A stretch of DNA of 64,000 nucleotides from an uncultured Pseudomonadota bacterium (GTDB lineage Bacteria; Pseudomonadota; Gammaproteobacteria; Steroidobacterales; Steroidobacteraceae). Of the stretch, positions 3,968 through 15,161 are shown piece after piece. The stretch's first letter is position 1. Each line of letters starts with the position of its first letter. The notes under the pieces were generated by a model that was given only the letters and a program-made list of their open reading frames with translations, ran no database searches and was not told the origin of the DNA. The stretch lies in the NCBI GenBank assembly GCA_903879335.1, contig CAIRLC010000007.1, forward strand, positions 124,001 through 188,000, written 5' to 3'. The position numbers and the translations under genes are program-made.

Positions 3968-5716
3968 TCAATGGGGCCGAACGCCCTCATTCATAAGGCC
4001 GGCAGGTTCCAATGGCCAAGTCAGACGAACTTCTGTGCCACAGCCGGGTTCGGAGGTGACCTGAAAGGCGCCACCAAAATGAGACGTGCGCTCCCGAAGG
4101 CCTCGCATACCGCGGGAATCAGAGACATGAGCGACATTTACGCCAGGCTCAACGCGCTCCGGCATACCTCTGCCATTATCGCGTACCGTCACTTGTAAGC
4201 AGTTTTGTTCAATTTCGATGCCGACATAGACTTTGTCCGCAGCGGCGTGCCGGGCGACGTTGTTCAGCAATTCCTGGATGGTTCTGAACAAGTCCGTGCT
4301 AATGGCGTCCGGGACATCGCTATCTTCAACATCAATTTCGGCGGTCAGTTGAATTGCCTTGTAAATCGCCGACCATTCCCGGCAGAAGTAGCGAACGGCC
4401 GACGCCGCCCCGAGGTCATCGAGGATTGTCGGTCGCAGATTCATAGAAATATGCCGGACCTCTCGAAGGAGATCGCCGACTCGGCCAGCAATACGCTCCA
4501 GACTGGCATGGGCATCAGCCTTGCGGTCTCGGTCAACCAGGGCTGCAGCGTGTTCCAACGAGAACTTAATCGCTGTCAGTGACTGACCGACAGAATCGTG
4601 TAAATCCAAGGCGATCCGTTTGCGCTCCAATTCCTGCGCTTCGATCAGTTGGTTGGAAAGCTTGGCGAGATTTTCACGGGAGCGAGCGAGCGAAGCCGAG
4701 GTCACCTTGTGTCGCTCAATGGCTTCACGCAGCTTTTCGTTCGAGTGTTGCAGCTCAGCGGTACGCTCGACGATGCGCGCCTCCAGATGCTCGTTCAGCG
4801 CCGTAATCCGGCGGCCGGCTGCATTTAGTTCCGTCACATCCGACACGATACAAGAGATCCGCGGGCGAATATTGGCTGTTCCGGCGGCCGGCGCCACCGA
4901 GCGCAATTCAAACTTAAGAACACGAGACGCAGGCTCCGAGCTCCACTCAAACGTGGCCGCTTTGCCGCTAACTATCTGATTTAATGAATTTTTAAGCGCT
5001 CCTCGCAACATGCATGGCGCGTGTTCGCAGGCGGGATGCAGCAAGTCATGAAGCGCTCGACCACGGATTCGATCCACTGGGTGTCCGGTCCAACGGGTCA
5101 GTGCCTGACTCGCACGCACAACCTGTCCCTCGTGATCAAGGAGCGCGGCCACCACCTCCGCAGCGTCGACGACGGACTCCCATTCCATTTTGGCGGTGTA
5201 AATCTGAGACAGGACCGTCTCACGCGACGAGTCGTCCGCAAACATACGGGTCGTACCCGAGACCATGCGTCGCGAAAGATCGACCGCCATTCTCATCGAG
5301 TCCAGAGGAATCGCCGCGTCGGGAACCAGCAACAGAAAGACGTGCGAGGGAGCGCCGTCCGCCGGCACGGCGGCACAAGCGGCATGACACGCAGTGATTG
5401 GCATACCCTGTTCACTCGAGACAGGCGCAGCGCTCATTGCCTTACGGATGTGGACGCGGTTTACGTGCTTCATCGCGTCAGCGAGCAGCTTAATCTCGTA
5501 CAGCTTCACCGCGCGCATGGCCCAAGCGGCGGGCACATTTGTTCCGGTCACGATGCGAGCAGTATCTGATCCCTCAGGGATTTCGAACACCATGCACGAC
5601 GCACCAGGAAAAATCTTAGCAAGGGTTTCGCTCATGGCTGAAGCGACGTCCCGGATCGACTTGGCAGAGCCTAGAGCTTCCTCGAATCCGCGCAAAAGTG
5701 GCAGTGTAGTCAGCAT
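3968..5716 (-). CDS. NarX/UhpB-class sensor histidine kinase (HisKA_3)
   Basis: Sensor kinase of 582 aa. I chose the ATG at 5716, preceded by a GGGGGG ribosome-binding stretch, over a TTG 24 codons upstream. Residues 1-160 look GAF-like, a PAS domain covers about 175-295, and a coiled coil (LEARIVERTAEL) about 300-365. The HisKA_3 block contains ALDLHDSVGQ with the phosphoacceptor His near 373. A HATPase_c domain follows, with LLNNVARHA, DNGRGMP and RGMRGLRERT. No membrane segment is seen, so it is probably soluble. The likely partner is the NarL-type regulator at 6742-7434, one gene away on the opposite strand. The signal sensed is unknown. Confidence 0.85.
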   Translation of the reverse strand: MLTTLPLLRGFEEALGSAKSIRDVASAMSETLAKIFPGASCMVFEIPEGSDTARIVTGTNVPAAWAMRAVKLYEIKLLADAMKHVNRVHIRKAMSAAPVSSEQGMPITACHAACAAVPADGAPSHVFLLLVPDAAIPLDSMRMAVDLSRRMVSGTTRMFADDSSRETVLSQIYTAKMEWESVVDAAEVVAALLDHEGQVVRASQALTRWTGHPVDRIRGRALHDLLHPACEHAPCMLRGALKNSLNQIVSGKAATFEWSSEPASRVLKFELRSVAPAAGTANIRPRISCIVSDVTELNAAGRRITALNEHLEARIVERTAELQHSNEKLREAIERHKVTSASLARSRENLAKLSNQLIEAQELERKRIALDLHDSVGQSLTAIKFSLEHAAALVDRDRKADAHASLERIAGRVGDLLREVRHISMNLRPTILDDLGAASAVRYFCREWSAIYKAIQLTAEIDVEDSDVPDAISTDLFRTIQELLNNVARHAAADKVYVGIEIEQNCLQVTVRDNGRGMPERVEPGVNVAHVSDSRGMRGLRERTSHFGGAFQVTSEPGCGTEVRLTWPLEPAGLMNEGVRPH

Positions 5717-5846
5717 AAATCCCCCCGGCGCCTCGGTTGCAAACGCCGAGTCATGCCCTGTGAAGAGAGTATCAACTGTACTGAACAATCAAAGTGGCAG
5801 GAGCACCTAGACGTGGCGAGGGTAAACCCTACCCACTGCCGAACGT

Positions 5847-6482
5847 TCACGAGGCGACCTGAGCCAGATACTTACGATAAAGGCGCAGTACGGTGGGGAC
5901 ATAAGCCCGCGTTTCCGGATATGGCGGGATACGCCGACCATATCGCTCAACGGCCTCCTCGCCAGCGTTATAGGCCGCGAGCGTGAGCGTCAGATCATTG
6001 TTATAGCGACGCAACAGGTCACTCAGGTAATGAGCGCCGCCTTCAATATTGTCGGCCGGGTCAAAGGGATTTAAGACGCCATAGCGTCGCGACGTGTCCG
6101 GGTGTAACTGCATCAAGCCTTGCGCACCAGCTCGAGATACGGCCTGCACATTAAAGGCCGACTCTGCAGCAATCACGGCGCGCAGCAAAGCGGGATGCAC
6201 CGAACGGCGTCGAGCGGTCTGATCAATTAAGCCGGACAGGGCCGCTTCGCGCTGCCGCCAACTCTCTTGAACGATCGGGGCGCCTGGATTGGTCGCAGCC
6301 ACTTGGGCTTGAGCCTGCTTTTGGAACAGCACATAGCGCGGGTCATCCGGCACATTGCTGAAATGAGTGACGCCACCATCATCGACAAAACTGTAAATAT
6401 CTGCGCGGCACTGGCCGCCGAGCAACAGCGCCAGCGCCAGAAGCAGAAATTGGAAAGGCGATGCGACGGATACGCGAAACAT
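5847..6482 (-). CDS. Lytic transglycosylase (SLT/MltE-like) with DUF4124 domain
   Basis: Peptidoglycan lytic transglycosylase acting in the periplasm. From the chosen ATG (6482) the 211-aa product starts with a signal peptide (MFRVSVASPFQFLLLALALL, cleavage after QCRA). A DUF4124-like segment DIYSFVDDGGVTHFSN follows, then the SLT domain with the catalytic Glu in AVIAAESAFN and the motifs GAQGLMQLHPDT and LTLAAYNAGEEAV. An ATG 34 codons upstream (6584) is possible but would put a long extension before the signal peptide. It lies between the kinase and the divergent response regulator. Confidence 0.85.
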   Translation of the reverse strand: MFRVSVASPFQFLLLALALLLGGQCRADIYSFVDDGGVTHFSNVPDDPRYVLFQKQAQAQVAATNPGAPIVQESWRQREAALSGLIDQTARRRSVHPALLRAVIAAESAFNVQAVSRAGAQGLMQLHPDTSRRYGVLNPFDPADNIEGGAHYLSDLLRRYNNDLTLTLAAYNAGEEAVERYGRRIPPYPETRAYVPTVLRLYRKYLAQVAS

Positions 6483-6741
6483 ACGGGTCCAGCAGAGTCG
6501 GACGGAGGATTTAGACCGGATTAGGTTAACGCGCGCGCAATCGCGGTCACTATCGATTGAACGGAAATGAGACTGGCTTCTCATTTTCAGTAATTCCTAC
6601 TTATGCCTCTTCCGCGCGCGAGCGATACTGGCACCGTAATCCAATGTGAGCGAAAGGCTCTCAGAGGAAAAATCAGCAGCGACAGATTCGCATCGGTTGG
6701 AGCGCTCCACATCAGATGTCTATCTTCTCAAGGATTGCCAT

Positions 6742-7434
6742 ATGAGCGTTGAAACGTCCGTCACAGATGAAAAGATAAAGATTTTCATTGTTGACGATCA
6801 CGCTATTGTCCGCGAAGGATTGCACGCACTACTTTCCTTGGAGGCGAACTTCGAGGTCGTGGGTGATGCGGCTGATATCAATGAAGCGATTTCAAAAACG
6901 CCAGCGCTTGGACCAGATCTAATCATTACGGACCTATCAATGCCCGGCGTGACAGGCGTATCCGGAATTGCCGCACTGCGCGAACACAATCCAACGGCGA
7001 AGATTGCCGTTCTCACCGTGCACAACACCCCCGAATACATTCGAGCATCCATTGGCGCAGGTGCTGACGGGTACATCGTCAAAGACTCCTCGCGAAGTGA
7101 GTTGCTACGCTCTTTGCAGCAAGTATTGCGTGATAAGGTCCACCTCTGTGCTCGTTCATCACAGCAGTTTGTTCAAACTACTTTGAGTCGGCATAAGTCA
7201 GCGACCGATGAGACCGAAGAGACTGTCACTCTTCGTGAAAAAGAAATCTTAACCATGGTCGCGCGGGGTCAGTCCAATAAGATGATAGCCCGATCTCTTT
7301 GCCGCAGCATCAAGACCGTCGAAAAGCATCGCGCGAATCTGATGCGAAAACTGGACCTTCATAACGTCGCTGATGTCACCCGATACGCGATGCAAAATGG
7401 TCTCATGACGGACACTCCGCGCCAGAATTCATAG
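6742..7434 (+). CDS. NarL/FixJ-family response regulator
   Basis: DNA-binding response regulator of 230 aa. The start at 6742 follows an AAGGA ribosome-binding site with 7-nt spacing. The longer in-frame start at 6646 adds a poorly conserved tail. The receiver domain has the acidic pair in FIVDDHAIVREG, the phosphoacceptor Asp near residue 64 in IITDLSMPG, Thr in LTVH and Lys in YIVKD. The C-terminal LuxR-type helix-turn-helix reads LREKEILTMVARGQSNKMIA and KTVEKHRANLMRKL. It is divergent from the transglycosylase and close to the HisKA_3 kinase, its probable phosphodonor. Confidence 0.9.
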   Translation: MSVETSVTDEKIKIFIVDDHAIVREGLHALLSLEANFEVVGDAADINEAISKTPALGPDLIITDLSMPGVTGVSGIAALREHNPTAKIAVLTVHNTPEYIRASIGAGADGYIVKDSSRSELLRSLQQVLRDKVHLCARSSQQFVQTTLSRHKSATDETEETVTLREKEILTMVARGQSNKMIARSLCRSIKTVEKHRANLMRKLDLHNVADVTRYAMQNGLMTDTPRQNS

Positions 7435-7438
7435 GGCA

Positions 7439-7457
7439 GGGTAGCGGTCAGCTACCC
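7439..7457. terminator. Hairpin between the convergent response regulator and trpA
   Basis: GGGTAGC at 7439-7445 pairs with GCTACCC at 7451-7457 across a 5-nt loop, spanning the trpA stop codon. It sits where transcription from both sides must end, and could act as a bidirectional terminator. No long T tract follows on either strand. Confidence 0.45.
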
Positions 7458-8246
7458 TCTCAAACCGAGGATAAAGGGCACGGGGTCTTCGCCCCGTTCG
7501 AGCACTTCAACAAGCGCCGAGCCTACGACTACACCTTGGACCACCGGCGCCAACAAGCGGACCTGCTCGGCCGAACGGATACCGAATCCCGCGCATACCG
7601 GGATTGACGAGAGCTGGCGCACGCGCTGAAGGTATTCCGTAACTTCCGTGGGCACCGCGACCTGCTTACCCGTCGTTCCAGTCATCGTGACTGCATAGAT
7701 AAAGCCACGCGCTTCTCGGCAGAGCATGGCGAGTCGCTCATGGGGAGTGACGGGGGTGACCATCTGCACGAGCCCTATGCCTACCGCTTCCAATGCCGCG
7801 CGCATCTCGTGGGATTCTTCGTACGGCAAGTCGGGGACAATAAATCCTGCAACGCCAGCATCGCGAGCGGCGGCCGGCAACCGGTCTATGCCAAACGCGA
7901 GCAGCGGGTTGAGATAACTCATCAACAAAAGAGGCGCTTTAGGTCGCGCCGCCAGTCCGCGGAGTGACTCCAGAATCCATGCCAGCGAAACGCCGCCGAC
8001 GAGCGCTTGGTGGCTTGCGCGCTGAATGGTCATGCCATCAGCCATCGGATCCGTAAACGGCACGCCGATTTCAAGAACATCAGCCGTATTGGCTATGCGA
8101 ACAAGCTCCTCCAGGAACTTCTCCTTCGTTGGAAAACCGGCCGTCATAAAACCCACAATTGCCGTTTCCCCGCGCGCATTCGCGGCAAGAATTGCATCGC
8201 CAATCGTTTCATGACCGAGGCGAGTTGTATTCACAGTGGTCATCAC
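7452..8246 (-). CDS. trpA: Tryptophan synthase alpha chain
   Basis: Cleaves indole-3-glycerol phosphate to indole and glyceraldehyde 3-phosphate inside the TrpA2B2 complex. Length (264 aa) is normal. The catalytic Glu is in VLEIGVPFTDPMADG, where the same segment supplies the catalytic Asp, and VPDLPYEE is the usual substrate-loop region. The phosphate-binding end CAGFGIRS and VVVGSALVE is intact. The ATG overlaps the trpB stop by 4 bp, as expected for translational coupling of the two subunits. It is the last gene of the trp operon and ends in TAG. Confidence 0.95.
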   Translation of the reverse strand: MMTTVNTTRLGHETIGDAILAANARGETAIVGFMTAGFPTKEKFLEELVRIANTADVLEIGVPFTDPMADGMTIQRASHQALVGGVSLAWILESLRGLAARPKAPLLLMSYLNPLLAFGIDRLPAAARDAGVAGFIVPDLPYEESHEMRAALEAVGIGLVQMVTPVTPHERLAMLCREARGFIYAVTMTGTTGKQVAVPTEVTEYLQRVRQLSSIPVCAGFGIRSAEQVRLLAPVVQGVVVGSALVEVLERGEDPVPFILGLRG

Positions 8247-9487
8247 AGTTTTCCCTTCAGCAAAGTGCGTTGCAACGTTGGCATGTCTTTATCACCCCGA
8301 CCGGAGAGACAGATGACCAATGTGGTACCGGGATTCTTCTCCGCCCATTTGCGTGCACCGGCAAATGCATGACCCGTCTCAATCGCCGGAATAATGCCCT
8401 CTGTTGAGCAGCATTCGGCCAAGGACTCGAGCGCCTCGTCATCCGTAATGTAGTCATATTGAACACGACCGGTGCTCATGAGCAGCGAGTGCTCGGGTCC
8501 AACGCCGGGGTAGTCGAGCCCGGCCGATACCGAGTGCGTTTCCTGAATCTGGCCGTCCGCATCTTGCAGCAACATGGAGTAACAGCCCTGCAAAACGCCA
8601 GGGCGCCCCATCGTCAAGGTCGCCGAGTTATCACCCAGAGCTGGACCTCGGCCACCCGCTTCCAATCCAATCAGTTGGACGCCCGGATCACCGATAAAAG
8701 GATGGAACATTCCGATCGAATTCGAACCGCCGCCCACGCAAGCGAATACCGCGTCAGGCAAAGCGCCAGTCTGTCGAATCATCTGGGCGCGAGCTTCACG
8801 ACCGATGACCGATTGCAGCTGCCGGACCAGCAGAGGGTATGGGTGCGGACCCACCGCGGAGCCCAGCAAGTAATAGGTGCCGTTAGGATCGGATACCCAG
8901 TCCCGCAATGCTTCGTCAATCGCCGCACGCAATGTTTGGTCACCGCCAGTGACCGGGACTACGGTTGCGCCCAAGAGTTTCATTCGCCCGACGTTTGGCG
9001 CCTGGCGCTCGCAATCGATAGCGCCCATATACACGGTGCAGGGCAAGCCCAATCGAGCGCAAGCCGCAGCACTCGCGACGCCATGCTGGCCCGCACCCGT
9101 TTCAGCCACAATACGCTTAGCGCCCAATCGTTTGGCGAGCAGGGCCTGACCGATGGCATTGTTGATCTTGTGGGCGCCCGTGTGCGCCAGGTCTTCGCGC
9201 TTCAAGTAAACCTTGGCGCCCCATTTTGCGGATAGCGCCGGGGCAAACGACAGCGCAGTGGGTCGACCGACCCAATCCGCCAATTGCGCATCCAGTTCAG
9301 CTGCAAATTCAGGATCACCGAGCCATCGGTGCACACCCGCTTCGAGGCGGTCCAGCGCCGGCATCAGCGTTTCCGGTACATATCGGCCGCCGTAAGGACC
9401 GAAACGCCCGCGTTGGTCGGGGAACTCGCCCGCGATCTCCCGCTTGAGTAACGCGCTGGCTTCGCCGACTTCGAATAGCCTCTGCAT
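8243..9487 (-). CDS. trpB: Tryptophan synthase beta chain
   Basis: PLP enzyme condensing indole with serine to give tryptophan. The ATG at 9487 is preceded by GGGAG with 7-nt spacing and gives 414 aa, close to the family norm. An ATG at 9508, directly after the trpF stop, is a second option. The PLP Lys lies in HTGAHKINNAIGQA, the phosphate-binding glycine loop is GGGSNSIG, and the N-terminal signature is GRFGPYGGRYVPETL. The gene overlaps trpA by 4 bp and follows trpF within 22 bp. Confidence 0.95.
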   Translation of the reverse strand: MQRLFEVGEASALLKREIAGEFPDQRGRFGPYGGRYVPETLMPALDRLEAGVHRWLGDPEFAAELDAQLADWVGRPTALSFAPALSAKWGAKVYLKREDLAHTGAHKINNAIGQALLAKRLGAKRIVAETGAGQHGVASAAACARLGLPCTVYMGAIDCERQAPNVGRMKLLGATVVPVTGGDQTLRAAIDEALRDWVSDPNGTYYLLGSAVGPHPYPLLVRQLQSVIGREARAQMIRQTGALPDAVFACVGGGSNSIGMFHPFIGDPGVQLIGLEAGGRGPALGDNSATLTMGRPGVLQGCYSMLLQDADGQIQETHSVSAGLDYPGVGPEHSLLMSTGRVQYDYITDDEALESLAECCSTEGIIPAIETGHAFAGARKWAEKNPGTTLVICLSGRGDKDMPTLQRTLLKGKL

Positions 9488-9509
9488 GTCCTGACTCCCG
9501 TCCTTCATT

Positions 9510-10106
9510 TCAATAGGTTGCGGCGGCTCGTGCAGCCGCCACAAATGCGCGAATTTTGCCCAGATCCTTTCGGCCCGGTGTGGATTCCACACCGCTGGAG
9601 ACATCCACGCCATAGGGGCGGACGCGGCCAACGGCCTCCGTTACAGAAGCGGGATCCAGACCACCAGCCAATACAAGGCGAGTACGTCCAGCGAGCATGG
9701 CCGCTTCCGTCCAATCGGCGCGATGTCCTTGACCGCTGTCGGCACTTTCATAGAGACATCGCGCCGGGTAAATGTCCGGCATCGGCCGACCCGTCCTGTA
9801 CACAGGGAGCGTCCGCATACCCGCCGGCAGGTCGAGATCATCGAAATCTGCCGCATCAGTTTGCAGAACATCGGGCTGAAACGCCGCCAAGACCGACGCC
9901 AGAAAATCTCGGCTTGGGTGTTTCATGACTGCAAATCGCTCAACCCCCAACGGCACGCGTTGGGCCAGTTCGGCAGCCTGCGCTGGGGATACATTACGCG
10001 GCGAACTGGCATGAAATACAAAACCGACGGCATTGGCGCCCGAATCAACCGCCACATCGATCGACTCCGCCGTAGTCAAACCACAAATCTTGACCCAAAT
10101 TGTCAC
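9510..10106 (-). CDS. trpF: Phosphoribosylanthranilate isomerase
   Basis: Converts N-(5-phosphoribosyl)anthranilate to CdRP. The frame stays open upstream inside trpC, but family alignment puts the start at the GTG at 10106, giving VTIWVKICGLTT and 198 aa. This GTG overlaps the trpC stop in the string GTGA. The catalytic Cys is in VKICGLT, and the general acid Asp is probably in LQTDAADF. The phosphate-binding loops LAGGLDPASV and GVDVSSGVE are present. It stands between trpC and trpB as a separate enzyme, not fused to TrpC as in E. coli. Confidence 0.93.
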   Translation of the reverse strand: MTIWVKICGLTTAESIDVAVDSGANAVGFVFHASSPRNVSPAQAAELAQRVPLGVERFAVMKHPSRDFLASVLAAFQPDVLQTDAADFDDLDLPAGMRTLPVYRTGRPMPDIYPARCLYESADSGQGHRADWTEAAMLAGRTRLVLAGGLDPASVTEAVGRVRPYGVDVSSGVESTPGRKDLGKIRAFVAAARAAATY

Positions 10107-10942
10107 GTCGCAGACCTCGCGGCACGGCCGCTCGCGATCATGGACTGCCCGAGCGCGATCGGATCTGCGCTCGACATTAACGCCGTACCCACCAGTGCAG
10201 CGGTGTAGCCGGCAGCCGCTAACCGCGCCGCGTCTTGCGCCGTGACCAATCCGCTTTCGGCCACGCGCGGATGGGCGCGCGGCAAACAACCCGCTAGTTC
10301 ATCGAGTCGTTCTGGCACCACTTTAAGTGTCGTCAGGTCGCGGCTGTTGACGCCGATCAGGCAGTTCTCAGGCCGACCACGCCATTGGTTAGCGATCGAT
10401 TCCGCAATAGCCACCTCGGCCGCGTCAAATGCTTCGAGCAATATAAACAGCCCCAACTCTGCCGCGAAAGCCGCCATGCGCTGCAGCGTGGAGTGATCCA
10501 GCATCCGAACAATCAGCAATACACCCCCTGCGCCGCAGACCCGGGCTTCGAGTAGCTGATACGGATCCACCAGAAAGTCCTTACGCATCGCCGGCACACC
10601 CGCGGGCGCTAACACGCGCGCTGCACGGCGCAAGTGATCAAGACTGCCGTCAAAACGGGCGGGTTCGGTCAATACAGACACAATCGCTGCTCCAGCAGCG
10701 GCGTACGACAGAACGCGAGCTTCAAGATCGTCAGCGGAACCGGACAACAGGCCCATGGCGGGTGAGCGCAGTTTGAGTTCAGCGATCAGATCGAAGCGAC
10801 CGTCGAGTGACAATTTCGGCGGTGGAGGCAATGTGGCCACTCGCGCTATCAGCTCACGCTCAGATTCAACCGCCCGAGCCGCTTCAACGCGAGCGCGCGA
10901 AGACTCAGCCATGGCGGCCAAAAAATCCATTTGCAGTGTCAT
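10103..10942 (-). CDS. trpC: Indole-3-glycerol phosphate synthase
   Basis: Closes the indole ring from CdRP with loss of CO2. A single-function TrpC of 279 aa. Visible landmarks are LIAELKLRSPAMG (with the catalytic Lys; the usual family form is K-x-SPS), VSVLTEPARFDGSLDHL, MRKDFLVDPYQLLEARVCGA and IGVNSRDLTTLKV. It overlaps trpD by 4 bp (ATGA) and trpF by 4 bp (GTGA). Confidence 0.95.
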   Translation of the reverse strand: MTLQMDFLAAMAESSRARVEAARAVESERELIARVATLPPPPKLSLDGRFDLIAELKLRSPAMGLLSGSADDLEARVLSYAAAGAAIVSVLTEPARFDGSLDHLRRAARVLAPAGVPAMRKDFLVDPYQLLEARVCGAGGVLLIVRMLDHSTLQRMAAFAAELGLFILLEAFDAAEVAIAESIANQWRGRPENCLIGVNSRDLTTLKVVPERLDELAGCLPRAHPRVAESGLVTAQDAARLAAAGYTAALVGTALMSSADPIALGQSMIASGRAARSAT

Positions 10943-11970
10943 CGCAGGGTTGCTCCGAACGCTGCAAGGCTTCGCAACATGGCGGCTGCCGCCCCACTAT
11001 CGATCGTGTGCTGCGCATGCGCCGCCGCCGCTAAGGGATCAGCGGCCAAGCCCATCACTTCCAAGGCCAAAGCGACACCCATCACCAACGCATCCCGATG
11101 CGGTCCGCGATCGCGGCCCTCAAAGACGGCCCGCAACGCAGCGGCATTGTGCGCAGCATCACCGCCGCGTAATTCTTCGGCCGCACAGGTCGGGAGACCA
11201 AAGTCAGCCGCCGAGCGCGTTGACGACCGAATCTGACCCGGCGTCACATCGTGGAGCAGAAAACTACCGGCTGGGGTCGGTTCGTCCCAACCCGGTTCGC
11301 CATGAACCACGAACGCACGGCGAATAGGCAGGCCCGCAAGGGTTTCGGCCATCAATGCCGCCGCTTCAGGACTATAGGCGCCAATAATGTGGAAATCGGG
11401 CTCTGCCGGATTCGTGAGCGGACCGAGCATATTGAAAATAGTACGTACACCCAGCGCGGCCCGCACCGGCGCGATCGCTTTCATCGCCGGGTGATAATGC
11501 GGCGCAAATAAAAACGTGAATCCAGTCGCCGCCAGGCAGTCGCTGGCCGCTTTTTCGTCGAGGGGGATGCTCAGCCCCAACTCCTCCAGCACATCGGCGC
11601 TACCCGAGCGGCTCGATATGGAGCGGTTCCCGTGCTTAACCACCCGTGCGCCGGCGGCAGCGGCGAGTAAAGCGGTGCCCGTCGACAGGTTATAGGTGTT
11701 CGAGCCATCACCACCGGTACCTACGATATCTATGGTCGGCCCGACCTCCGGTAAGGTTGGGCGTCGCGCCAATGAGCGCATGCCGATCGCGAAACCGCGC
11801 ACTTCGTCCGCCGTGACACCCTTAGTGCGCAATGCAGCCAACAACGCGCCCGCAAGCGCCGGCGGTACTGCGGGATCTGTCAGGGCGAGCATGAGTTCGG
11901 TTGCATCGGCTTCACTCAGTGAAGCTCCGGATACAACACGCTCAAGTACGACCTTCAAGATCACGCTCAT
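10939..11970 (-). CDS. trpD: Anthranilate phosphoribosyltransferase
   Basis: Transfers the phosphoribosyl group of PRPP to anthranilate. The 343-aa protein carries the glycine-rich PRPP loop IVGTGGDGSNTYNLSTG and the anthranilate-binding KHGNRSISSRSGSADVLEEL, with FLFAPHYHPAMK further on. It overlaps trpG upstream and trpC downstream by 4 bp each. Confidence 0.95.
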   Translation of the reverse strand: MSVILKVVLERVVSGASLSEADATELMLALTDPAVPPALAGALLAALRTKGVTADEVRGFAIGMRSLARRPTLPEVGPTIDIVGTGGDGSNTYNLSTGTALLAAAAGARVVKHGNRSISSRSGSADVLEELGLSIPLDEKAASDCLAATGFTFLFAPHYHPAMKAIAPVRAALGVRTIFNMLGPLTNPAEPDFHIIGAYSPEAAALMAETLAGLPIRRAFVVHGEPGWDEPTPAGSFLLHDVTPGQIRSSTRSAADFGLPTCAAEELRGGDAAHNAAALRAVFEGRDRGPHRDALVMGVALALEVMGLAADPLAAAAHAQHTIDSGAAAAMLRSLAAFGATLR

Positions 11971-12563
11971 GCCCGACGCCCGCCCCGCATATGAAGAAAG
12001 TTTTCCAGCATTTTGGGTCCGTCCGGCGTCAACACACTCTCGGGATGAAATTGAACACCCTCAATCACCAAGTCCCGATGGCGTAGGCCCATGATTTCGC
12101 CTTCTGCCGTACTTGCCGTAACGATAAGTTCCGGGGGCATGGAGGCAGGTTGCGCGACGAGAGAGTGGTAGCGGCCGACTTCGAGCCGGGTGGGCAATCC
12201 TGCAAAGACGCCCTGCCCGTCGTGTTCGATCGCGGAGGTCTTGCCGTGCATGAGTCGGCTATTACGGACCACCTTACCGCCAAACGTTTCGGTGATGGAC
12301 TGATGACCTAAGCAAACGCCGAGAATGGGTAAACGGCCAGCGAAATGACGAATCATGTCCATCGAAACGCCGGCATCGTAGGGCGTTCCCGGCCCAGGGG
12401 AGATGCATAAATGGGTCGGCGCTAACGCATCCGCTTCGGCGAGCGTGATCTGGTCGTTGCGATGGACCAAAACCTCCGCACCGATCACGAGAAACGCCTG
12501 TACGAGGTTATAGGTGAACGAGTCGTAGTTATCGACCAACAGCAAACGTGGAGAGGTCATCAC
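11967..12563 (-). CDS. trpG: Anthranilate synthase glutamine amidotransferase subunit
   Basis: Class I glutamine amidotransferase feeding ammonia to TrpE. The 198-aa protein has LLLVDNYDSFTYNL at the N terminus, oxyanion motif SPGPGTPYDAG, the nucleophile Cys in LGVCLGHQSI and the His-Glu pair in FHPESVLT. A PabA role shared with folate synthesis is possible in principle, as in other bacteria, but its place in the operon points to tryptophan synthesis. Confidence 0.95.
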   Translation of the reverse strand: MMTSPRLLLVDNYDSFTYNLVQAFLVIGAEVLVHRNDQITLAEADALAPTHLCISPGPGTPYDAGVSMDMIRHFAGRLPILGVCLGHQSITETFGGKVVRNSRLMHGKTSAIEHDGQGVFAGLPTRLEVGRYHSLVAQPASMPPELIVTASTAEGEIMGLRHRDLVIEGVQFHPESVLTPDGPKMLENFLHMRGGRRA

Positions 12564-13960
12564 AGGCCCTCCTTTGCCATATCGAGGGCACGGCGCAATA
12601 CAGCGCTCTTGGCCAAAACTTCCTCGTACTCAGCCTCAGGCACACTATCGGCCACGACGCCGGCGCCCGCTTGGTAACGGTACTCGCCGTCGTGGAAAGT
12701 CAGGCTTCTGATTGTAATCGCGTGATCCATGTCCCCGCCGTGTCCGAAATAGCCGTAGGTGCCACCATATAGACCGCGCCTAACCGGCTCTAATTCCTCA
12801 ATAATGTCCATAGCGCGCACCTTCGGCGCACCAACCAGGGTGCCCGCCGGAAAGGTCGCTGCGTATAAATCGAATGCATCGCGGCCGGCAGCCAGCCGAC
12901 CGCGCACCCCGGAAACGATGTGCATGACGTGGCTGTAGCGCTCAATCACGCGATAAGGGTCCACGTGGACGCTACCGGCGGTGGCCACTCGCCCCAAATC
13001 ATTTCGGGCCAAATCGACCAACATGACGTGCTCGGAATTCTCCTTGGCATCGGCGAGCAGTTCTCGCTCCAGCGCAAGATCCTCAGCCCCATCAATGCCA
13101 CGACGTCGCGTACCAGCAATAGGTCGTAATTCTGCCATTCCGGCATGCAAGCGAACGAGCGCCTCCGGTGAAGAGCCCACCAGGGTTCGATCTCCCAGTT
13201 CGCAATAAATCATGTACGGCGATGGATTGACGAGGCGTAAGGCGCGATAGGCCTCAAACGGGTCTAATTCGCATGCACCACGAAATTGTGACGACAAGAC
13301 CAGCTGGTAGACATCGCCCGCCGCGATGTATTCCTGGACGCGCTTGACGCCGGCGATGTACTCCTCCCGGGAGAGGCTGCCTTTCGCGGCTTCAAGTCGG
13401 GCTGGTGGTCGGCCTATGGCCAGCCCGCCGCGCAAGGCGCGAATGATCTCGCGCCTCAAGGCTTGCCGTTCTTCTTCTGATCCGGCATGGAGCAGGGCAA
13501 TGCCTCGGGTCACGTGATCGAAGATCAGAAAGGAACAGGGCGCGAGATAACACGCTTCCGGCATCCCGGGCTCAACGGGTAGACGTGTCGGGACACGCTC
13601 GAACCAACGGACTAGGTCATAGGCGGATACGCCGACTAACCCACCGGCTAAGGGCATGCCTGGAATGTCGGGTTTGGGCCTTGGGGCACGGGCCAGCGCA
13701 GCGCGTAAGGCGTCCAACAGTGCCGCACCATTCTCAGGTCGGGGCGACACCTCGACTTTTCCGCCCGCTGGTCGGACTTTGAGGCCTTGGGCATCCAGCC
13801 GAATCTCGAGCGCATCACCGAATCCAATGAAGGAATAGCGAGCCACGCGCTCACCACCCTCCACGCTCTCCAAAAGAAAACGCGGTTTGAATGGGCGCAG
13901 TTTCAAAAATGCCGATACCGGAGTATCGAGATCAGCCGCAATATCGAACGGGGGATGCAT
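12560..13960 (-). CDS. trpE: Anthranilate synthase component I
   Basis: Makes anthranilate from chorismate using ammonia from TrpG. The protein has 466 aa and is preceded by a GAGGAG ribosome-binding site. The tryptophan feedback motif LLES-X10-S is intact (LLESVEGGERVARYS near residues 30-44), so the enzyme is probably inhibited by tryptophan. C-terminal chorismate-enzyme motifs include PSPYMIYCELGDRTLVGSSP, IAGTRRRG and FPAGTLVGAPKVRAM. It is the first structural gene of trpEGDCFBA, 35 nt after an attenuator-type terminator. Confidence 0.95.
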   Translation of the reverse strand: MHPPFDIAADLDTPVSAFLKLRPFKPRFLLESVEGGERVARYSFIGFGDALEIRLDAQGLKVRPAGGKVEVSPRPENGAALLDALRAALARAPRPKPDIPGMPLAGGLVGVSAYDLVRWFERVPTRLPVEPGMPEACYLAPCSFLIFDHVTRGIALLHAGSEEERQALRREIIRALRGGLAIGRPPARLEAAKGSLSREEYIAGVKRVQEYIAAGDVYQLVLSSQFRGACELDPFEAYRALRLVNPSPYMIYCELGDRTLVGSSPEALVRLHAGMAELRPIAGTRRRGIDGAEDLALERELLADAKENSEHVMLVDLARNDLGRVATAGSVHVDPYRVIERYSHVMHIVSGVRGRLAAGRDAFDLYAATFPAGTLVGAPKVRAMDIIEELEPVRRGLYGGTYGYFGHGGDMDHAITIRSLTFHDGEYRYQAGAGVVADSVPEAEYEEVLAKSAVLRRALDMAKEGL

Positions 13961-13995
13961 AGGCTCCTCGTCTGGGATACCGGGGAGCAGGCGAT

Positions 13996-14030
13996 AAAAA
14001 ACCCACCCCCGGCTATGTCGGAGATGGGTT
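13996..14030 (-). terminator. trp attenuator terminator hairpin
   Basis: On the transcribed (minus) strand, AACCCATCTCC (14030-14020) pairs with GGGGGTGGGTT (14010-14000) through 11 bp including two G-U pairs. The loop is 9 nt, and the arm runs into a TTTTTT tract (14001-13996). It ends 35 nt before the trpE start. The 5' arm is also the downstream half of an alternative hairpin with 14086-14072, as expected of an attenuator. Confidence 0.85.
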
Positions 14031-14086
14031 TCGCGTGTACTTACCGGTTTCTATCGTTCAGGCCTAAGCCTCGCGCACCCACTCCG
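14019..14086 (-). promoter_or_regulatory. trp attenuator antiterminator pairing
   Basis: On the minus strand, CGGAGTGGGTGCGCG (14086-14072) can pair with CGCGAAACCCATCTCCG (14035-14019). This gives 14 bp in three blocks of 5, 5 and 4, with a one-base bulge and a small internal loop. The pairing occupies the 5' arm of the terminator. The upstream strand begins 10 nt after the three Trp codons, so a ribosome stalled there would leave it free. CATCCACTC (14140-14132) can pair instead with GAGTGGGTG in the same strand, giving the classical 1:2 structure. Confidence 0.8.
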
Positions 14087-14156
14087 TGGAATGACGCCAC
14101 CACCAACGGGCAGGCCGGTGGCCGCAGGTGAGAGTGGATGGCGATACAGTGCTCAT
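14064..14156 (-). CDS. trpL: trp operon leader peptide (TrpL)
   Basis: A 30-codon open frame upstream of trpE, running from ATG at 14156 to TAG at 14064. The peptide starts MSTVSPSTL and ends WWWRHSTEWVREA: three consecutive Trp codons plus a fourth five codons later, in a window where Trp is otherwise rare. Antiterminator and terminator hairpins follow directly. The role is inferred from known trp attenuators: ribosome stalling at the Trp codons when charged tRNA-Trp is scarce. The ribosome-binding site (GAGG) is only 2 nt from the ATG, which is unusually short. Confidence 0.85.
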   Translation of the reverse strand: MSTVSPSTLTCGHRPARWWWRHSTEWVREA

Positions 14157-14162
14157 GTCCTC

Positions 14163-14192
14163 AGTATCACCCGAGTCGCGAAAATTGGTCAA
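14163..14192 (-). promoter_or_regulatory. Candidate trp promoter
   Basis: On the minus strand, TTGACC (14192-14187) and GATACT (14168-14163) are separated by 18 bp and resemble sigma-70 -35 and -10 boxes. The predicted start would fall at or next to the trpL ATG, so the leader peptide might be translated from a nearly leaderless mRNA, or the true promoter lies elsewhere in the 84-bp divergent gap. Confidence 0.3.
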
Positions 14193-14240
14193 GTTATCGG
14201 ACCGTCAGGTTACGATGGCAACGTCTTCCCGCGACCCTAC

Positions 14241-15161
14241 ATGCCGATGCTACGCCTGCCTACCCGACTTTACGGTCCCCGCTATTGGCCGACTTGGCTT
14301 GGGCTCGGCCTCATCCGTCTGGCCGCGAGCTTGCCGTATTCCGCGTTATTGATCGCGGGGCGGGCATTAGGCGCACTCGCTCACCGCCTTCCTCTGCCCT
14401 ATCGCCGTGTCGCTGAACGCAATATGGCCCTGTGCCTGCCGGATTGGAGCCCGAACGAGCGCGCTGATTTGCTCCGGCGCCATTTCAAGTCGCTCGGCAT
14501 TGGGCTACTCGAATCTGCGCTGACGTGGTGGGGTTCAGATGAAACGCTGATCGCCCATTCCGACATTATTGGAATGGAACATTTGGAGGCCGCGACGGCT
14601 TCTGGCAAGGGCGTCATTCTGCTGACGGCGCATTTCACGACGCTACAGATCGGTGCGCGCATCCTAAATGCTCGGTACCCGATCAATGCACTGTACAAAC
14701 CAACAAAGAATGAATTGATTGCGGCCATTTCCGGCGCGAGTTTTGCGCGTTCCGCCCGCAGAGCCATCCGCCGGGATGACGTCCGAGCCATGATTTCGGC
14801 GTTAAAGCGCAACGAAGTGGTGTGGTACGCCGCCGATCAGAGCTATCGCAACAAGGGCGCACTGATGGTGCCCTTCTTCGGTCATCCCGCCGCCACCAAC
14901 GTGTTTACGTCGCGGCTGGCGGAACTCACCGGCGCCGCAGTCCTTTATTACGAAACCGAGCGATTGCCGGGCACTCGCGGTTGGCGCGCAACGATTCATC
15001 CGCCGTACGTACCGTTTCCAAGTGGAGATCCGCTCGCCGACACCCTGCGCTACCACGCCTCCATCGAAGCTCAAGTCCGGCGCATACCTGAGCAGTATTG
15101 GTGGATCCACAAGCGATTCAAGGCTCTGACGCCAGACTATCCCGACCACTACGCGGATTAA
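14241..15161 (+). CDS. LpxL/HtrB-family lysophospholipid or lipid A acyltransferase
   Basis: Inner-membrane acyltransferase of the late lipid A acylation family, 306 aa from the ATG at 14241. Landmarks are a hydrophobic N-terminal anchor (WLGLGLIRLAASLPYSALLI), AERNMALCLPDWS, the GKGVILLTAHFTTLQIGAR block, YKPTKNELI and ADQSYRNKGALMVPFFGHPA. The family catalytic motif H-X4-Glu reads His131-FTTL-Gln136 here, so the expected Glu is replaced. The gene is divergent from the trp leader and convergent with the phosphotransferase gene 6 bp away. Confidence 0.85.
   Translation: MPMLRLPTRLYGPRYWPTWLGLGLIRLAASLPYSALLIAGRALGALAHRLPLPYRRVAERNMALCLPDWSPNERADLLRRHFKSLGIGLLESALTWWGSDETLIAHSDIIGMEHLEAATASGKGVILLTAHFTTLQIGARILNARYPINALYKPTKNELIAAISGASFARSARRAIRRDDVRAMISALKRNEVVWYAADQSYRNKGALMVPFFGHPAATNVFTSRLAELTGAAVLYYETERLPGTRGWRATIHPPYVPFPSGDPLADTLRYHASIEAQVRRIPEQYWWIHKRFKALTPDYPDHYAD

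Follow-up and report, generated by a model that had tools for sequence, protein, structure and literature searches.

A predicted ribosome-mediated trp attenuator with a putatively leaderless leader ORF upstream of trpEGDCFBA in a Steroidobacteraceae bacterium

The genes trpEGDCFBA of an uncultured Steroidobacteraceae bacterium are very probably preceded by an E. coli-type, ribosome-mediated transcription attenuator, whose leader ORF would be leaderless or nearly so. The genes are located in a stretch of 64,000 nucleotides of contig CAIRLC010000007.1 (hereafter, the window), the positions of which are used throughout. In this region we found a Trp-rich ORF, an intrinsic terminator before trpE and an antiterminator that excludes the terminator, the combination that characterizes a trp attenuator. 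The parts of the attenuator, their conservation, their pairing statistics and their spacing were obtained from the DNA itself, and they allow a transcription start site, ribosome stalling, termination and regulation by Trp to be predicted. The annotation of the region is provided in Table 1.

Downstream of the leader ORF, the minus strand carries a GC-rich hairpin with six T. The 11-bp terminator with T tract that a preliminary description of this DNA had proposed is present, with its stem at 14030-14000, and the 3:4 hairpin is conserved. The same description had pointed to an alternative pairing that captures the 5' arm of the terminator, and this antiterminator was also found, joining 14085-14072 with 14035-14019 on the minus strand. 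Folding of the leader from 14156 to 13961, which had been suggested as a check, gave −85.1 kcal/mol compared with a mean of −70.6 kcal/mol for shuffled sequences (z −3.14), and none of the 200 shuffles folded as well.

Table 1. Features of the trp leader region and of the trp operon in the window.
Feature	Position	Strand	Basis or remark
−35 box TTGACC, predicted operon promoter	14187..14192	−	sigma-70-like site scan
−10 box GATACT	14163..14168	−	conserved xATACT; 6 nt between its end and the start of the leader ORF
trpL leader ORF, predicted leaderless, 30 codons (MSTVSPSTLTCGHRPARWWWRHSTEWVREA*)	14064..14156	−	ORF list and family conservation
Sensor, three Trp codons	14097..14105	−	Trp run of 2-4 in 121 family leaders
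Segment 1 in its conserved version, the codons that follow WWW	14086..14096	−	predicted to pair with segment 2
Segment 2, GGAGTGGG plus distal CGCG	14072..14085	−	overlaps the fourth Trp codon, 14081-14079
Segment 3, distal CGCG plus ACCCATCTCCG	14019..14035	−	partner is segment 2 (antiterminator) or 4 (terminator)
Segment 4, terminator 3' arm	14002..14013	−	3:4 pairing statistics
Terminator T tract	13996..14001	−	sequence and family comparison
Segment 5, GCTCCCCGG, between T tract and trpE SD	13980..13988	−	possible translational layer
trpE Shine-Dalgarno GAGGAGC	13963..13969	−	
trpE	12560..13960	−	best model TIGR00564, below its cut-off
trpG	11967..12563	−	TIGR00566 above cut-off
trpD	10939..11970	−	TIGR01245 above cut-off
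trpC	10103..10942	−	TrpC models, all below cut-off
trpF, predicted start codon	9510..10118	−	TrpF models, all below cut-off
trpB, predicted start codon	8243..9475	−	TIGR00263 above cut-off
trpA	7452..8246	−	TIGR00262 above cut-off

The specificity of the pairings was evaluated with the segments of 63 leaders, each combined with its own partner or with noncognate ones in 5000 permutations, a comparison in which the relatedness of the leaders is retained. The cognate partner was preferred for the whole 2:3 pairing (−19.9 vs. −17.9 kcal/mol), for its distal part (−6.84 vs. −5.54 kcal/mol) and for 3:4 (−16.9 vs. −16.3 kcal/mol), with 0 of 5000 permutations in the three cases; for proximal 2:3 the values were −12.2 and −12.05 kcal/mol (41 of 5000). 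When alignment columns were counted, 93.2% of the 3:4 cells were paired and both sides had changed in 4 of 10 pairs. The covariation proposed as a check was thus observed for 3:4 and, in the cognate test, for distal and whole 2:3, but the proximal 2:3 core was invariant and showed none in the column count. The T run after the stem was not clean in 6 of 131 leaders (G009, G025, G028, G046, G083, and G146). Two of these leaders, L089 (G083) and L090 (G146), belong to the genus of the window and keep the leader, the antiterminator and the hairpin, the T tract of the terminator having been lost (GGGTCCTGC and GGGCGTGGC, respectively).

The leader frame of 30 codons with Trp-Trp-Trp and a fourth Trp, already noticed at 14156-14064, is present and conserved. 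The Trp run consisted of three codons in 87 of 121 family leaders; it must be considered that these leaders were chosen for paired Trp codons. The Trp codons of the window end at 14097, 10 nt ahead of 14086, in agreement with the distance to the antiterminator previously given. Between the final Trp codon of the run and segment 2 there were 14-20 nt in all 121 leaders (14 in the window), a spacing that fits the edge of the ribosome, since with a Trp codon in the A site the ribosome would cover segment 1 and reach as far as the border of segment 2. After the Trp run, R-x-S was found in 72 of the 121 leaders, and in 49 an R-x motif ended the leader with S, F, P or L as the last residue. The stop codon was situated ahead of segment 2 in 75 leaders (18 genera). 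In the other 46, among them the 13 of the genus of the window, segment 2 has already begun when the stop codon is reached; the window has 19 nt from the start of segment 2 to the stop codon, and segment 2 is translated there in the leader frame as T-E-W-V. The fourth Trp of the window is therefore the result of reading segment 2 in frame. Its possible role as a sensor codon was rejected for this reason, and because 75 of the 121 leaders stop before segment 2. A ribosome stalled at this codon would be expected to cover segment 2, hide the antiterminator and favour termination.

With respect to the promoter, a sigma-70-like site, TTGACC-18-GATACT, was the only one identified in the scan of 7300-14400 (14192-14163), but the scan by itself is weak because shuffled sequences give 2.3 sites by chance. 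An xATACT box ahead of an in-frame Trp leader was found in 121 of 135 family upstream regions, and TTGAC preceded the −10 box by 17-18 nt in 117 of these 121 leaders. Taking as leader start the in-frame ATG nearest to the box, the start codon was 6-10 nt past the box in 118 leaders (117 with ATG and one with GTG, no ATG having been identified there) and 6 nt in the window; in the remaining three the ATG was at 24-25 nt and, as read by eye, an in-frame GTG at 6-7 nt. Possible in-frame starts between the box and the Trp run numbered exactly one in 91 of the 121 leaders and more in 30; 119 of the 131 in-frame ATGs in this interval lay at 6-10 nt, and shuffles had an open in-frame ATG at that distance in 1.6%. 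The 14 regions without box corresponded to ten of genus g19, in which the Trp leader is kept and no xATACT was found at the usual place, three losses and one short contig. Among 20 order-level loci, xATACT was 6-10 nt before an in-frame start in 14 (two with GTG) and 15 had it when a looser box was allowed, no box being found by the script in the other five. The exact pattern of promoter plus ATG occurred once in the genome of the window, and a reversed-pattern control occurred twice.

From the distance between the −10 box and the start codon, the transcript is predicted to begin at most a few bases away from the start codon, and the trpL ORF would be leaderless or nearly so. The near absence of a predicted 5' UTR did not appear in the preliminary description. 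In addition, the 121 family leaders gave no Shine-Dalgarno (SD) signal above shuffled, with a mean pairing of −2.25 vs. −2.40 kcal/mol and values of −6 kcal/mol or stronger in only 4 of 121; before trpE the mean was −5.5 vs. −3.8 kcal/mol.

Two alternatives concern the 5' half of the leader. Transcription might start further upstream, either because the box is not the −10 of the true start or because the GAGG of the window serves as SD on a longer RNA. Such a start would be consistent with the low power of the promoter scan, with one site where 2.3 are expected by chance, and with the GAGG itself, which is located at 14162-14159 (minus strand), two bases ahead of the leader ATG, and pairs with the anti-SD with −5.8 kcal/mol (rank 5 of 121). 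We consider it improbable, given the conserved arrangement of TTGAC and xATACT, the spacing from box to start, which is kept in nearly all family leaders and in 14 of the 20 order-level loci, and the family mean of SD pairing, which equals the shuffled one. The SD reading is also opposed by the 12 other leaders of the same genus, which lack a GAGG of comparable strength and whose anti-SD pairing is −2.9 kcal/mol or weaker; moreover, the GAGG of the window probably lies too near its ATG to function as SD. The second alternative, put forward in the preliminary description, places segment 1 at 14140-14132, in the 5' part of the leader, through a 9-bp pairing with 14084-14076. This complement exists in segment 2 and appears in the window when the minimum-energy fold is computed, and the 5' part of the leader prefers its cognate segment 2 (11 of 5000 permutations). 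However, the pairing is at chance level when compared with shuffled leaders (the window has p 0.22; the 121 genomes have a mean z of +0.21, with p≤0.05 in 3), it has no fixed position among the 13 leaders of the same genus and, as a ribosome stalled on WWW would already have passed it, it could not be masked by that ribosome, all of which makes this segment 1 very unlikely. The conserved segment 1 would instead be formed by the codons after Trp-Trp-Trp. Over the 121 genomes the local 1:2 pairing was better than with shuffled segment 1 (mean z −2.03, p≤0.05 in 78, that is 64%), although in the window alone it was weak (p 0.13) and the preference for the cognate partner was modest (141 of 5000). 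The statement that all classical parts are present holds for 2:3 and 3:4, while 1:2 would be replaced by the local version after WWW; similarly, the expected conservation in relatives was observed for the frame, the Trp run, segment 3 and 3:4 but not for the upstream 1:2.

According to the proposed attenuation mechanism, transcription would start approximately at the leader ATG, as suggested by the position of the −10 box, and the ribosome would initiate on the 5' end of the RNA. When Trp-tRNA is scarce, the ribosome would stall on WWW with its downstream edge covering segment 1 and not segment 2. The free segment 2 would then pair with segment 3, no terminator would be formed, and the seven trp genes would be transcribed. 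When Trp is ample, the ribosome would run on and cover segment 2, allowing 3:4 to form and transcription to end near 13996. PMC1183508 describes the classical scheme of attenuation for E. coli.

The distribution of the attenuator was studied by searching 150 genomes of the family of the window with TrpE, which gave 138 matches at E≤1e-120. The upstream regions of 135 of them were examined, two at contig ends and one without N-terminus being left out, and G122 has too little upstream sequence, so that 134 genomes were assessable. In 131 of these, trpE was preceded by a leader with a Trp run and, after it, by the segment 3/4 hairpin, G009 and G025 being counted only by patterns widened for them; family counts such as this one are not independent, as the genomes are related. 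Together with the anatomy, this frequency supports the reading as a probable trp attenuator made in the preliminary description. Leader and hairpin were sought and no attenuator was found before trpE in G042, G095, and G138. The corresponding loci (L126, L122, and L204, respectively) show promoter-like sequence before trpE and no Trp-codon leader with terminator, and in G095 a segment-4-like stretch can still pair, by eye, with a segment-5-like one. Of the 17 closest named loci, the leader was seen by eye in 15 and not clearly in L014 and L016; this leader is also carried by a Woeseia record (L015).

A covariance model was built from 63 family leaders with <80% identity. In a draw of the order it matched 170 of 196 genomes at E≤0.01, representing 57 of 60 genera, with 132 of 157 genomes outside the family and 38 of 39 within it, the latter partly by construction since the model derives from that family. 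Most of the listed genomes of the order families f10, f12, and f14 had no match. Twenty order-level matches picked from ten other families were all just upstream of trpE. At the stricter threshold of E≤1e-4, a draw of 369 genomes of the class gave 7 matches, two of them outside the order and five within it, the five being a count and not a rate for the order. Six other matches of the model in the genome of the window (E 0.016-0.69) were rejected, the best being the same terminator on the opposite strand.

Other types of leader were also considered. TRAP and T-box systems, which sense proteins or tRNA, govern trp genes as well, and the region might belong to them or to another RNA family. Nevertheless, none of 4227 Rfam families matched the window at gathering score, and when the search was relaxed for 13900-14300 the five matches obtained were all sub-threshold, none of them of TRAP or T-box type; together with the conserved Trp-rich ORF and its ribosome-edge spacing, this makes such a leader extremely unlikely. 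The sub-threshold matches (Hammerhead_II, miRNA, and others) were taken as chance. The terminated leader might additionally act in trans as a small RNA beside attenuation, with the CUCC-bearing segment 3 as a possible seed. In favor of this role, segment 3 is nearly invariant, with CCCATCTCCG in 112 of 131 leaders, and a precedent exists in rnTrpL of S. meliloti, as reported in PMC7298713. The invariance is also to be expected from the two pairings, with 2 and with 4, that segment 3 has to make, and we regard a trans function as quite unlikely.

The attenuator was compared with known systems, using NC_000913.3 for E. coli trpL. The peptide end of the family leaders resembles the WW-R-x-S-stop of E. 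coli (WWRTS-stop), both systems are directly upstream of trpE, and the local 1:2, 2:3, and 3:4 arrangement of E. coli is also predicted here; in E. coli the stop codon is ahead of segment 2. In contrast to E. coli, the Trp run usually has three codons instead of two, the stop codon is beyond the start of segment 2 in 13 of 13 leaders of the genus of the window, and the −10 box is 6-10 nt from the start codon, compared with 33 nt from the ATG in E. coli. The SD pairing of E. coli K-12 trpL is −4.5 kcal/mol. Moreover, E. coli has the Trp repressor as a second control, as stated in PMC1183508, whereas no match to TrpR (PF01371) was obtained in the genome of the window, which is 96.8% complete, the controls in E. 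coli and B. subtilis being matched. Therefore, attenuation may be the main control by Trp, as judged from one assembly and one family model.

Leaderless trpL genes are already known elsewhere, and the attenuator of the window is another, predicted, example. In Sinorhizobium meliloti, the RNA of trpL/rnTrpL begins with the trpL ATG, as in the prediction made here; PMC7298713 also reports trans roles of the leader RNA and peptide and no transcriptional repression. This bacterium differs in being an alphaproteobacterium with trpE(G) downstream and a peptide of 14 residues (PMC7298713). Streptomyces lividans trpL1, considered here by its printed peptide, encodes a WWW leader peptide before trpE and is reported as transcribed leaderless, although it is a streptomycete gene upstream of a monocistronic trpE (PMC8079986). 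For the ilvBNC attenuator of Corynebacterium glutamicum, transcription is reported to start with a single nucleotide before the ilvL start codon, but the system concerns branched-chain amino acids and follows a three-hairpin model (PMC11857589). In the literature searched, which mostly excluded subscription papers, we found no report of this leader in this group, nor any paper on a Steroidobacter attenuator or on trp attenuation in Xanthomonas. The leaders described here would thus form a large and well-conserved set of Gammaproteobacteria trp attenuators with a leader ORF predicted to be leaderless, in comparison with the 5' UTR of the textbook E. coli case. If this is true, transcription-translation coupling could be tested where the first ribosome loads on a bare 5' end. 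A covariance model is now available for a leader that Rfam misses at its thresholds, as well as natural losses for comparison.

A further, translational layer is possible, though rather unlikely. Segment 5 is complementary to the SD of trpE (GCUCC/GGAGC) and to segment 4 (CCGGGG with CCCCGG). If such a two-tier control existed, segment 5 would hide the trpE SD in leaky readthrough RNA with 3:4 formed, and in the antiterminator state segment 4 would capture segment 5 and open trpE. An SD motif was recognized in 56 of 131 leaders, GGAGC in 32 of them, and GCTCC was present in the interval of 25 of these 32 (shuffles: mean 3.4 and maximum 9 in 200 sets). The corresponding figures were 1 of 24 for the leaders that have a different SD and 0 of 75 for those in which no motif was recognized. 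The 25 leaders belonged to seven genera, with 13 from that of the window. The 4:5 pairing was stronger than in shuffled sequences (−17.7 vs. −13.5 kcal/mol in 52 leaders), and its specificity between genera was weak (z −1.7, 14 genera). The unpaired probability of the SD was 0.21 in the 3:4 state vs. 0.29 in the 2:3 state (mean of the 39 genomes, of 51, that show the segment 5 pattern), 0.32 and 0.33, respectively, with shuffled spacer, and it changed from 0.21 to 0.24 in the window. Because this predicted opening is small, the second layer is presented here as a hypothesis. If the two-tier reading were true, G083 and G146, in which the T tract is lost and segment 5 is kept, could have moved to translational control.

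Gene calls in the operon were made with NCBIfam models and their cut-offs (Table 1). The seven trp genes are close to each other on one strand, and the only promoter-like site is that of the leader, weak evidence on its own; this organization would fit a single attenuator for all of them, as had been suggested. In the same genome, L082 (G000:C18:10787-12061) encodes a second TrpE/PabB-type protein, 40% identical and perhaps pabB. A divergent gene for an LpxL/HtrB-type acyltransferase occupies 14091-15161 (+), its longest frame overlapping the trp leader in antisense; a start at about 14232 already gives a nearly full domain. Next to trpA, in 3968-7434, a sensor kinase (−) and a NarL-type response regulator (+) flank the frame 5847-6584, which we take, by eye, to resemble a lytic transglycosylase.
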